Of a DNA stretch of 64,000 nt, positions 21,012-58,650 are shown piece after piece. The notes under the pieces were generated by a model. The model ran no database searches and was not told the DNA's origin. It saw only the letters and a list, made by a program, of their open reading frames with translations. The translations under genes were made by a program, and so were the position numbers. Source of the stretch: Sphingobacteriaceae bacterium. GTDB lineage: Bacteria; Bacteroidota; Bacteroidia; Sphingobacteriales; Sphingobacteriaceae. The number at the start of each line of letters is the position of its first letter. The first letter of the stretch is position 1. The DNA is taken from assembly GCA_947463785.1 (NCBI GenBank), contig CANHRG010000003.1:62001-126000 (forward strand), read 5' to 3'.

Positions 21012-21578
21012 TTACTCTTCAGTAGTGCCTCCAAAAATGGGCTCTTCTTTTTTGAAAATAGCGGCAAAAATAAGCGACATTATAAACTGTACGATCACTC
21101 CTATTCCTAGGGTTTTAAGCAAGTCCATAAAACTGGGATTAAACTGACTTTTCATCCCTTCCATCACTTTTTCTAGGGTTTTATCAATCGTTTCTTCGTC
21201 CATTCCTAATTTTTCATAGGTACCGTAAAGGCTCTCTGAAACAATCGCAGAAATCTTATCAAATGCTCCCGGTTCAATAAATTTATAAAACACAAAGTTG
21301 CCGAGTGTAGCCACTAAACCCGCGATAAATGACATTAAAAAAATGCCATTCAGGGCTTCACGAAACGACCAAAACCCGCCCACTTTTTTTCTTAAATCGA
21401 GGGTAAAATAGATGTAAAGCCCAAGCGAAATGAGCATCATAGCGATACCAAAAAACGTTGATCCCATTAAACCGGGTGAAACGTAATAAATTAAGATACC
21501 TAGTACAAAAGAAATGCCCCCTACGATGAGGCCGTTGTTGATTGCTTCTTGATTAGCATTAGTTGGGGTTGGTTCCAT
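21012..21578 (-). CDS. DUF4199 domain-containing membrane protein
   Basis: A 188-residue membrane protein recognised as DUF4199, a Bacteroidota family of unknown function. Four hydrophobic segments are visible (about 16-35, 38-57, 76-100 and 155-175), with GFWSFREALNGIFLMSFIAGL in the middle being typical. A polar helical stretch (about 105-150) between helices three and four probably lies on one face of the membrane. It begins 2 bp after the acidic unknown gene, closing a tight three-gene unit led by a degenerate dihydroorotase. In other Bacteroidota it is also found near dihydroorotase and glycosyltransferase genes (from memory). Confidence 0.8.
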   Translation of the reverse strand: MEPTPTNANQEAINNGLIVGGISFVLGILIYYVSPGLMGSTFFGIAMMLISLGLYIYFTLDLRKKVGGFWSFREALNGIFLMSFIAGLVATLGNFVFYKFIEPGAFDKISAIVSESLYGTYEKLGMDEETIDKTLEKVMEGMKSQFNPSFMDLLKTLGIGVIVQFIMSLIFAAIFKKEEPIFGGTTEE

Positions 21579-21580
21579 AA

Positions 21581-22252
21581 TTATGAGTTATTAAAATTAA
21601 TGAGTAATTGGTAAACTGCTGAATCAAAATCAGCTACTGGTGCGTTGGTATTAACTTCCACCTGCTCATCATGTGCAGGCTTTGGATTTCGGAAGAAACA
21701 CATTAAAGAGTAAAATAGTTCTTTGATTTCCGAATCGTCCGAAATATCTTGAGCAACTTTGGCCACTTCTTGAGCTGAACTTTCCATCAAAATTTGATTG
21801 GCGATAACTTCTTCATAGATGCGGTGTTCATCCTGAAATTCATCTTCGTCAACCAATAAAAACTCTTTCAGAAAATCGCTCAACTCAGGCTCAATGTCCT
21901 CGTCCTGGCATTCTTTAAGATAGAGTAATACATTTAACAATTCCGTACCACGATCTAAGGTTTGTTCTTCAATGGCTTCCCACTCCGGAGAATCCAAATA
22001 ATCTTCTTCCAACTTGTTTACATCGTCGCTAAAGAAATTAATCAGCAACAAATCGAAAACAACCTCGCGTAATGATTCAAAAGTAGGATAATCATCAATT
22101 GCCTTATCCAGATCTGCTACCTTTTCCAGGTAAGCCTTATCGGAAGAAAAAATGGCGACCAAATCTTTGATCAAAGGTTTAGCATCTTTTTGAGCTAATT
22201 TGCCAAATTGTTGCAGTGAGGCTTCAAGAGCCGAAAGCACAGGTGTGTTCAT
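21581..22252 (-). CDS. Acidic soluble protein of unknown function
   Basis: A 223-residue protein that I do not recognise. It is strongly acidic (runs such as DEDEFQDE and ECQDEDIEPELSD), mostly helical in appearance, and has no signal peptide, membrane segment or Cys-based metal motif. A C-terminal stretch near 185-200 is low-complexity, followed by a hydrophobic end (AVYQLLINF). It starts 1 bp after the degenerate dihydroorotase stop and ends 2 bp before DUF4199, so translation of the three is likely coupled. The context suggests a partner of one of these two proteins, but nothing in the sequence shows a function. Confidence 0.75.
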   Translation of the reverse strand: MNTPVLSALEASLQQFGKLAQKDAKPLIKDLVAIFSSDKAYLEKVADLDKAIDDYPTFESLREVVFDLLLINFFSDDVNKLEEDYLDSPEWEAIEEQTLDRGTELLNVLLYLKECQDEDIEPELSDFLKEFLLVDEDEFQDEHRIYEEVIANQILMESSAQEVAKVAQDISDDSEIKELFYSLMCFFRNPKPAHDEQVEVNTNAPVADFDSAVYQLLINFNNS

Positions 22253-22253
22253 T

Positions 22254-23519
22254 TTAATAATTAGATCTAAAACTTTGGCCTTTATTACAAGCCCAAACTA
22301 CTTTTCCGGTAAGTTTTTGTCCCATCAATGGACTGTTAGCCGAGCGTGAACGATTGCTGCTTGAATCGAATATCCAGCTAGCTTTAGGATCAAACAGAAC
22401 TAGGTTAGCCTGTTCTCCTAGAGCGATTTTCGGCAAATCTACCCCTAAAATTTTTCTTGGGTTCACGACTAATTTATCAACCAGTTCAGTTGGTTTTAAT
22501 CCTGCTTGGATAGCCATGGGCAACAAGGTCTGCAAACCGATCATCCCGAAGGCCGCCAAGCCAAATTCTACATTTTTAAATTCAATTTCATGTGGAGTAT
22601 GCTGCGAAACAATCGCATCAATGGTACCGTCCTTTAATCCGGCCATTAAAGCCTGGCGGTCGTTTTCGGTACGCAAAGGTGGTTTTACCTTATAATAGCT
22701 ATCAAAATCTGACAACACATCCTCAGTGAATACCAAGTGGTGTGCAGCCACATCGCAAGTAACTTTAATTCCTTTAGCTTTGGCTTCGCGTATCAACTGA
22801 ACACTTTTTGCACTTGAAATAGTACTGAAATGAATGGCTGTATCGTGGTAAGCTGCCAATTCAATATCTCGAGCAATCATTAATTCTTCGGCTAAAGCCG
22901 GATTGCCTTTTAAGCCTAATGTAGTGCTCATGGGTCCTTCATTTACCGGCGCTTTACCGGCCAATCCCGGATCTTCAGCATAGGCGAATAGTTTGGCTTC
23001 AATTCCTTTAGCATACAACAAGGAGCGACTCATTAAGCCGGTATCTTTAACCGGATGATCTCCATCTGAAAACGCCAAGGCACCTGCAAGTTTCATATCG
23101 TACAATTCAGCCATTTGCTCCCCTTTGCGATCTTCACTTATAGCGCCAATGGGATAAATGTCTACACCTTCACCCTTAGATTTGTTGAGAATGTAACTTA
23201 TTTCTGATTTAGAGTGAAAGGCCGGCGTAGTATTTGGCATTAAGGCTAGCGCTGTAATGCCACCCGCAAGGGCAGCCGCACAACCAGAAGCCATACTTTC
23301 CTTCGTTTCCAAACCCGGTTCACCAAAGTTTACGTTCAAATCACAAAATCCGACAGAAAGAAAACAATCCTTGGCATCAATTACTTCAGCACCTACAGGA
23401 ATTTTTAAGCCAGATCCAATTTCAGCAATCCGACCTTCAATAATTAGAACATCCTGAGATTCTTTGCTTTTAAACTCTGGATGTACAATGGTTGCCGACT
23501 GCAGGAATATTTTTTTCAT
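22254..23519 (-). CDS. Dihydroorotase-like protein with a degraded metal site (probable pseudo-enzyme)
   Basis: A 421-residue amidohydrolase-fold protein that aligns with class I dihydroorotase along its length (ALMPNTTP, PIGAISED, the AHHL segment, PRKILGV). However, most zinc ligands are lost. The HxH pair is Asn62-Val-Asn64 (DLNVNFGEPG), the His180-type ligand is Tyr180 (FAYAEDP), and the catalytic Asp of TDHAPH is Gln306 (SQHTPH). Asp152 and His230 remain. I infer that it does not hydrolyse dihydroorotate. Known parallels are the inactive PyrC-like subunits that support aspartate transcarbamoylase in Pseudomonas. A near-canonical pyrC exists at 57304. Confidence 0.88.
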   Translation of the reverse strand: MKKIFLQSATIVHPEFKSKESQDVLIIEGRIAEIGSGLKIPVGAEVIDAKDCFLSVGFCDLNVNFGEPGLETKESMASGCAAALAGGITALALMPNTTPAFHSKSEISYILNKSKGEGVDIYPIGAISEDRKGEQMAELYDMKLAGALAFSDGDHPVKDTGLMSRSLLYAKGIEAKLFAYAEDPGLAGKAPVNEGPMSTTLGLKGNPALAEELMIARDIELAAYHDTAIHFSTISSAKSVQLIREAKAKGIKVTCDVAAHHLVFTEDVLSDFDSYYKVKPPLRTENDRQALMAGLKDGTIDAIVSQHTPHEIEFKNVEFGLAAFGMIGLQTLLPMAIQAGLKPTELVDKLVVNPRKILGVDLPKIALGEQANLVLFDPKASWIFDSSSNRSRSANSPLMGQKLTGKVVWACNKGQSFRSNY

Positions 23520-57303: not shown

Positions 57304-58650
57304 ATGACACCGAAAACCATTATCAAAAATTGCAGCATTGTAAACGAAGGTCAAATAATCGTGGCCGATGTACTTATTCATGATGGACGCATTGAGAAGA
57401 TCGGGAATGTGGATAGCTCTACAAATGCACAAATAATTGATGGTACCGGAAAGTACTTATTCCCCGGTATTATTGATGGCCAAGTTCATTTTCGCGATCC
57501 CGGTCTAACCCACAAAGGCGATCTGTATACCGAAAGTAAAGCAGCTATTGCTGGTGGTGTGACCTCCTTTATTGATATGCCCAATACTTCGCCAAATGTA
57601 TTGAGCATGGCTATTTTAAACGAAAAATACCGTATTGCTGCTGAAAAATCATTAGCCAATTTCGGCTTCTTTTTAGGTGTAAATGGCGATAACCTTGATG
57701 AAGTGATTCAACTCGATACGTCTAAGCTATTGGGCGTATCAGACGATGGCTTGTATTTTACTAAAAAAGGGAACCTGCTTGCAGATAATCCTGAAACCAT
57801 GGAAAAACTGTTTGCCAATTGCAAATCCGTTATTGCCATCCATTCAGAAAAAGAACAACTAATTGAAGAAAACGAACAAGCCTACCGAGAAAAATACGGT
57901 GAAAATGTACCGGTTGAATGCCACCCGCTCATCAGAAGCGAACGAGCTTGTTTTGAAGCAACCCAAAGAGCCATTGAGCTGGCCAATAAACACCATGCCC
58001 GGCTACATATTTTGCACTTAACCACCGAAGCAGAAACCCATTTATTCCGGAACGATATCCCCCTGACACAAAAAAACATTACCACAGAAGTATCTGTTCA
58101 TCATTTGTGGTTTACTGATAAGGATTATCAGCGTTTGGGCACCTTGATCAAATGGAACCCAGCCATCAAAACTGAAAAAGACAAAAAAGGCTTACTTAAA
58201 GCGTTGATAGAAGATAAAATCGATTTGGTAACTACAGACCATGCTCCACACACACTGGAAGAAAAACAAAAGCCTTATTTCCAGTCCATGTCTGGGGCTC
58301 CTATGGTGCAACACTCCTTAAACATCATGCTTGAGTTCTACAAACAAGGACTCATTTCGTTGGAGAAAATTGCTGAAAAAATGTGCCACAATCCGGCCAC
58401 ACTGTATCACATTGAAAAAAGAGGCTTCATTCGTGAGGGTTATTTCGCAGACTTAACCCTGGTTGACTTAGATTCAAGCTGGACGGTTACAAAAGAAAAT
58501 CTATTGTACAAATGTGGCTGGTCACCGGTAGAAGGAACTACATTCCAAACGAAAGTTACCCATACCTTCGTCAATGGCAATCTGGTTTTTGCCAATGGCG
58601 TTTTCGACGAAACCACTAAAGGAAAAGCATTGACAACCACAACAGCCTAA
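57304..58650 (+). CDS. pyrC: Dihydroorotase (pyrimidine biosynthesis)
   Basis: Forms dihydroorotate from carbamoyl aspartate in de novo pyrimidine synthesis. The 448 residues keep almost all class I ligands: His62 in QVHFRDPG, an Asp in VSDDGLYF, His in AIHSEKE, His in LHILHLTT, and the full TDHAPH. The first residue of the HxH pair is Gln60 (GQVH), a substitution I recall in other Bacteroidota PyrC proteins. This is therefore the probable active enzyme, unlike the paralogue at 22254. It is preceded by 221 bp without a gene that hold a weak hairpin (57243-57280). The peroxidase gene follows 64 bp later. Confidence 0.92.
   Translation: MTPKTIIKNCSIVNEGQIIVADVLIHDGRIEKIGNVDSSTNAQIIDGTGKYLFPGIIDGQVHFRDPGLTHKGDLYTESKAAIAGGVTSFIDMPNTSPNVLSMAILNEKYRIAAEKSLANFGFFLGVNGDNLDEVIQLDTSKLLGVSDDGLYFTKKGNLLADNPETMEKLFANCKSVIAIHSEKEQLIEENEQAYREKYGENVPVECHPLIRSERACFEATQRAIELANKHHARLHILHLTTEAETHLFRNDIPLTQKNITTEVSVHHLWFTDKDYQRLGTLIKWNPAIKTEKDKKGLLKALIEDKIDLVTTDHAPHTLEEKQKPYFQSMSGAPMVQHSLNIMLEFYKQGLISLEKIAEKMCHNPATLYHIEKRGFIREGYFADLTLVDLDSSWTVTKENLLYKCGWSPVEGTTFQTKVTHTFVNGNLVFANGVFDETTKGKALTTTTA

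Follow-up and report, generated by a model that had tools for sequence, protein, structure and literature searches.

In Aquifex aeolicus, the dihydroorotase (DHO) and the aspartate transcarbamoylase (ATCase) form a class A1 dodecamer (PDB-id 3d6n), in which two ATC trimers are held by three DHO dimers (PMC7053772). The DHO of this complex has all of its metal ligands and is active. Its residues His61, His63 and Asp153 make the alpha site, with Asp305 nearby, while His180 and His232 make the beta site and are dispensable for activity (PMC3880350). The class A2 ATCases of Pseudomonas putida, P. fluorescens and P. aeruginosa contain a different partner, PyrC' (pDHO), which has the class I DHO fold but has lost the zinc ligands, and they have no PyrI. 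The pDHO of P. aeruginosa is inactive, yet it is required for the assembly and the activity of the ATCase; dimers of inactive pDHO convert monomeric PyrB into an active dodecamer (PMC7053772). In fungi, a dead DHO fold has also been retained in a pyrimidine enzyme assembly, as the pseudo-DHO domain of Ura2, a fused CPSase-ATCase. Here, we analysed a gene found at positions 22254-23519, on the minus strand, of a stretch of 64,000 nucleotides (the window) from a member of the Sphingobacteriaceae. Like PyrC', its product is a class I DHO homologue that has lost its zinc ligands, six out of six, in a genome without PyrI; unlike the Ura2 domain, it is a separate protein. We consider it likely that this protein is a non-catalytic, DHO-fold subunit of ATCase that would bind PyrB, as the partners in Aquifex and Pseudomonas do. 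A limited literature search found no publication on a dead DHO of the Bacteroidota. In what follows, the class is that of the organism (Bacteroidia, Bacteroidota) and the family is the Sphingobacteriaceae.

The open reading frame starts with ATG and codes for 421 amino acids. The protein scores 341 bits against TIGR00857, above the curated cut-off of 279, which makes it a homologue of class I DHO, and it falls below the cut-offs of the listed DHO equivalog models. Aquifex DHO, which has a homologous PyrB as its partner, is the best match in both sequence and structure: 3d6n is the closest solved relative (E 7e-87), and the top PDB match of the predicted AlphaFold model (pLDDT 84, pTM 0.87) is 3d6n_A, the DHO in complex with ATCase, with a TM score of 0.87 and 37% identity. 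Three loops of the model, 188-203, 271-280 and 313-325, have low confidence. In isolated Aquifex DHO, three loops are disordered until the ATCase binds, and the loops of the model may be the same ones. The segment 271-280 is as conserved among the dead proteins as it is among the active ones.

Alignment to Aquifex DHO shows that all six ligands are replaced (H61N, H63N, D153G, H180Y, H232T and D305Q). The window protein has Asn62 and Asn64, in an Asn-Val-Asn motif, in place of His61 and His63 (codons 62-64, positions 23328-23336 as computed from the codon numbers), Gly153 in place of Asp153 (23061-23063), Tyr180 in place of His180 (22980-22982), Thr233 in place of His232 (22821-22823) and Gln306 in place of Asp305 (22602-22604), all on the minus strand. 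An earlier note, made from the DNA alone, had reported that four of the six ligands were replaced. The four substitutions that it named, Asn62, Asn64, Tyr180 and Gln306, are as written, and Gly153 and Thr233 bring the count to six. The lower count probably arose because Asp152 and His230 were taken for ligands; these two residues align with Asp152 and His230 of Aquifex and are conserved, but they do not bind metal in that enzyme. A catalytically active class I DHO requires His61, His63, Asp153 and Asp305, and the window protein has Asn62, Asn64, Gly153 and Gln306 at these positions. It is thus, judged by its sequence, a catalytically dead DHO paralogue.

The gene for the dead DHO is present in 40 of the 41 nearest genomes, that of the window included, and the single genome without it is 76% complete. 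Across the class, it was found in 209 of 246 genomes (E below 1e-45), to which a profile search adds about a dozen divergent or fragmentary copies. Between close pairs among the relatives, the median dN/dS is 0.046. The gene is therefore held by purifying selection and is not decaying, and this dN/dS of about 0.05, together with the conservation throughout the class, rules out a pseudogene and places the retention of the dead DHO far beyond chance. The proposal that the paralogue was kept for another role is borne out by the same facts and by its dead site. Some copies are very divergent (L219-L223 in family f83 and L066-L070 in family f72), and the PyrB proteins found there are also long-branched.

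The replacements themselves are another matter. The set N-N-G-Y/F-T-Q is found in most Sphingobacteriaceae, the near relatives being Mucilaginibacter, Pedobacter, Sphingobacterium and other Sphingobacteriaceae, so that the conservation of an Asn/Tyr/Gln set holds within the family. It does not hold across the class, where the six ligand columns of 69 proteins show 47 patterns, none of them complete. The entropy of these columns ranges from 0 to 2.2 bits, compared with 1.3 to 1.8 bits elsewhere. The substrate residues R65 and H309 also drift, while 28 of the 64 positions that are invariant in active enzymes remain at least 95% conserved in the class members. The protein could still be an enzyme, either with another arrangement of metal or by acting on a new substrate without any metal. 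The near fixation of the Asn/Asn/Gly/Tyr/Thr/Gln set within the family, and likewise of QHTPHE, is what such an enzyme would display, and since Aquifex DHO is active without its two beta-site histidines (PMC3880350), some of these losses would not by themselves abolish activity. However, the alpha-site ligands H61, H63 and D153 are lost as well, together with Asp305, the substrate residues vary, and the class as a whole shares no replacement set, which makes this explanation highly improbable; the 47 patterns rule out a conserved new active site at the level of the class. We infer that the former metal site is a relic and can drift freely. The dead-clade protein closest to an intact site (L114, genome G515) reads HHDYTD; it keeps H61, H63, D153 and D305, but the two histidines of the beta site are gone, and so are the substrate residues R65, N95 and H309. 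It is possibly a half-way stage.

Another DHO could supply the activity. A second pyrC, at 57304-58650 on the plus strand, had been recognized before, and its product scores above the cut-off of NF006688, the model of the Porphyromonas type (2gwn). Both proteins are amidohydrolases with a DHO annotation. The 2gwn type, however, is a distant branch, with 26% identity between the two proteins of the window, and its metal residues are largely kept. A PyrC of this type is present in the window and in 40 of 40 genomes of the class, compared with 0 of 20 genomes outside the class, and we presume that the 57304 copy is the working dihydroorotase of this genome. Its segment with the carboxylated lysine is replaced by SDDG. 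Residues ~141-160 read GVSDDGLYFTKKGNLL, as they do in two genomes of the same genus (G003 and G005), while other 2gwn-type members have G-[VIL]-K-x-F-x-G-S-S-T-G at this position, with the carboxylated lysine. G389, G396 and G038, three genomes that belong to other families, have the GVSDDGLYFTKKGNLL variant beside a normal copy; in the genome of the window, the SDDG variant is the only 2gwn-type PyrC that was found.

Outside the class, the homologues of the dead DHO are intact. All 20 that belong to other classes of the phylum have retained the six ligands (HHDHHD), and in a quick tree the dead proteins form a single clade beside them (SH-aLRT 99). At 9 of these 20 loci, the active gene is the third in the order pyrR-pyrB-pyrC. 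In the genome of the window, pyrR and pyrB lie together on another contig and the gene for the dead DHO lies elsewhere; at the loci of the class it never adjoins pyrB, the nearest case being about 3 kb away and on the opposite strand (L147). As the tree and the gene order show, the dead DHO descends from an active DHO whose gene often stands beside pyrB outside the class. In the simplest history, the reaction would have passed to the second PyrC in the ancestor of the class, and the old PyrC would have lost its site and moved, yet been retained. Horizontal gain from Pseudomonas is not favoured, as the nearest relatives in this tree, which was made without Pseudomonas sequences, are intact homologues from the same phylum. 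The loss of the ligands looks independent of that in Pseudomonas because it arose inside the Bacteroidota line, with an intact sister group in the phylum.

The distribution of the dead DHO follows the type of ATCase. PyrI was found in 12 of the 246 class genomes, none of which has the dead DHO, and in none of the 209 genomes with the dead DHO. By our own arithmetic, the chance of this exclusion under independent draws is about 2e-11; the genomes are not independent, and those with PyrI may lie in related families, so that the split perhaps reflects few evolutionary events. PyrI (PF01948) is also absent from the window genome and 41 relatives, which does not fit a class B ATCase (PyrBI) and, with the PyrB tree, fits the kind of PyrB that pairs with a DHO. 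In this tree, the PyrB proteins of the dead-DHO genomes, which are 47-89% identical to that of the window genome, are sister to those of the active-DHO genomes. The PyrI genomes have a distinct type, 32-35% identical to that of the window genome. A third type occurs in family f19 (L161, L163, L166 and L167), which has neither the dead DHO nor PyrI; there, PyrB is closest to the ATCases of Bacillus subtilis (348 bits) and Staphylococcus aureus. The ATCase trimer of B. subtilis needs no partner, and the match suggests that PyrB was replaced in this family by a self-sufficient trimer. One class thus has three PyrB types with three partner states: the dead DHO, PyrI and none. The dead DHO occurs together with the class-A-like PyrB, but not with the PyrI-type or the Bacillus-type PyrB. 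The PyrB of the window genome retains STRTK, HPTQ, SRVA and HPGPINRG, which we take to be the catalytic motifs. It scores 207 bits against PyrB of S. aureus and 200 bits against that of Aquifex, and these near-equal scores leave its quaternary class unfixed by sequence alone.

PyrB and the dead DHO are also absent together: neither is present in G202, G346 and G375, while G110, a member of the G202 genus, has the two of them. There are exceptions to this co-occurrence. PyrB was found and the dead DHO was not in G349, G364, G461, G491, G496 and G498, and also in G475, where the PyrB match is weak; the reverse is true of G332 and G428. Most such genomes are drafts in many contigs, and some of the exceptions may be gaps in these drafts. 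G388 (L044) has a class-B-like PyrB that is unlike those of its genus mates, without the dead DHO or PyrI, and a second genome of this genus, G431 (L035 and L175), combines both PyrB types with the dead DHO, also without PyrI; contamination is possible in both.

Because its presence follows the type of ATCase, the dead DHO has probably been retained to hold this enzyme together, as a structural partner. It could instead be a regulatory subunit, whose vacated pocket would bind an effector, for example a nucleotide, that controls PyrB. Where a genome has no PyrI, the dead DHO stands in for it, and the pocket residues are fixed at the level of the family, as such a role would have it. Across the class, however, these residues drift, and the effects of nucleotides in P. 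aeruginosa have been ascribed to destabilisation of the complex and not to allostery (PMC7053772). We regard a regulatory subunit as quite unlikely.

Differently from Pseudomonas PyrC', the window gene is not close to pyrB but belongs to a run that contains envelope-type genes. The tight spacing that had been described is correct: gaps of 1 and 2 bp separate the dead DHO gene from a gene for an acidic protein of 223 amino acids (21581-22252), which lies 1 bp downstream, and this gene from one for a DUF4199 membrane protein (21012-21578), all on the minus strand. The acidic protein is all-helical by prediction (model pLDDT 92); its family, of about 220 amino acids, has no relative in Pfam or NCBIfam, nor a PDB match with an E-value under 0.001. 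In 32 of 40 class loci, counted by eye, the gene immediately upstream of the dead DHO codes for a membrane-anchored protein of 420-460 amino acids without a clear family and with weak matches to DUF7408/CARDB (for example L026:2801-4057, L025:15-1403 and L031:190-1494). This protein is absent from the corresponding place in the window.

The earlier note had left room for the acidic protein or DUF4199 as functional partners, and one could suppose that the dead DHO acts with them and with GT2 glycosyltransferases, either in the envelope or in regulation, in a role that has nothing to do with PyrB. The gene run is conserved throughout the Sphingobacteriaceae; the acidic gene, itself strongly conserved (dN/dS 0.037), is close to the dead DHO in the examined loci of this family and in a few other families, and several families have DUF4199 and a GT2 glycosyltransferase after the dead DHO. 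In most other families, however, the downstream neighbours differ. The acidic gene is found in only 38 of 246 class genomes, compared with at least 209 for the dead DHO, so that the general retention of the dead DHO cannot be due to it, and it persists in two of the genomes that have neither PyrB nor the dead DHO (G346 and G375). On this distribution we rejected the acidic protein as an obligate partner; the dead DHO tracks the type of PyrB instead. A role with the operon neighbours is therefore improbable, and the suggestion of these proteins as partners is not supported.

The best-supported role is that of an ATCase scaffold of the Pseudomonas type, which the earlier note had raised: the type of PyrB, the exclusion of PyrI and the descent from an active DHO agree on it. 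By analogy with Aquifex and Pseudomonas, the dead DHO would form dimers and, through these, join two PyrB trimers in a dodecamer, in which PyrB would be assembled, stabilised or made active. The subunit probably has an independent origin, in the common ancestor of the class. As its gene stands in an envelope and glycosyltransferase run and not with pyrB, the supply of scaffold could set the amount of active ATCase and so tie the production of pyrimidines (UDP-sugars) to the synthesis of the envelope. In the Sphingobacteriaceae, the acidic helical protein could then be an additional subunit or regulator. We hold this extension to be improbable.

If the dead DHO is indeed a subunit of ATCase, the "dihydroorotase" annotated in most genomes of the class would be a part of the preceding enzyme and not the enzyme itself, and annotations and metabolic models would be corrected. 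An independent origin of an ATCase with a dead DHO would be added beside those of Pseudomonas and fungal Ura2, and the class would offer a natural experiment, in which the three types of PyrB can be set against their three partner states.
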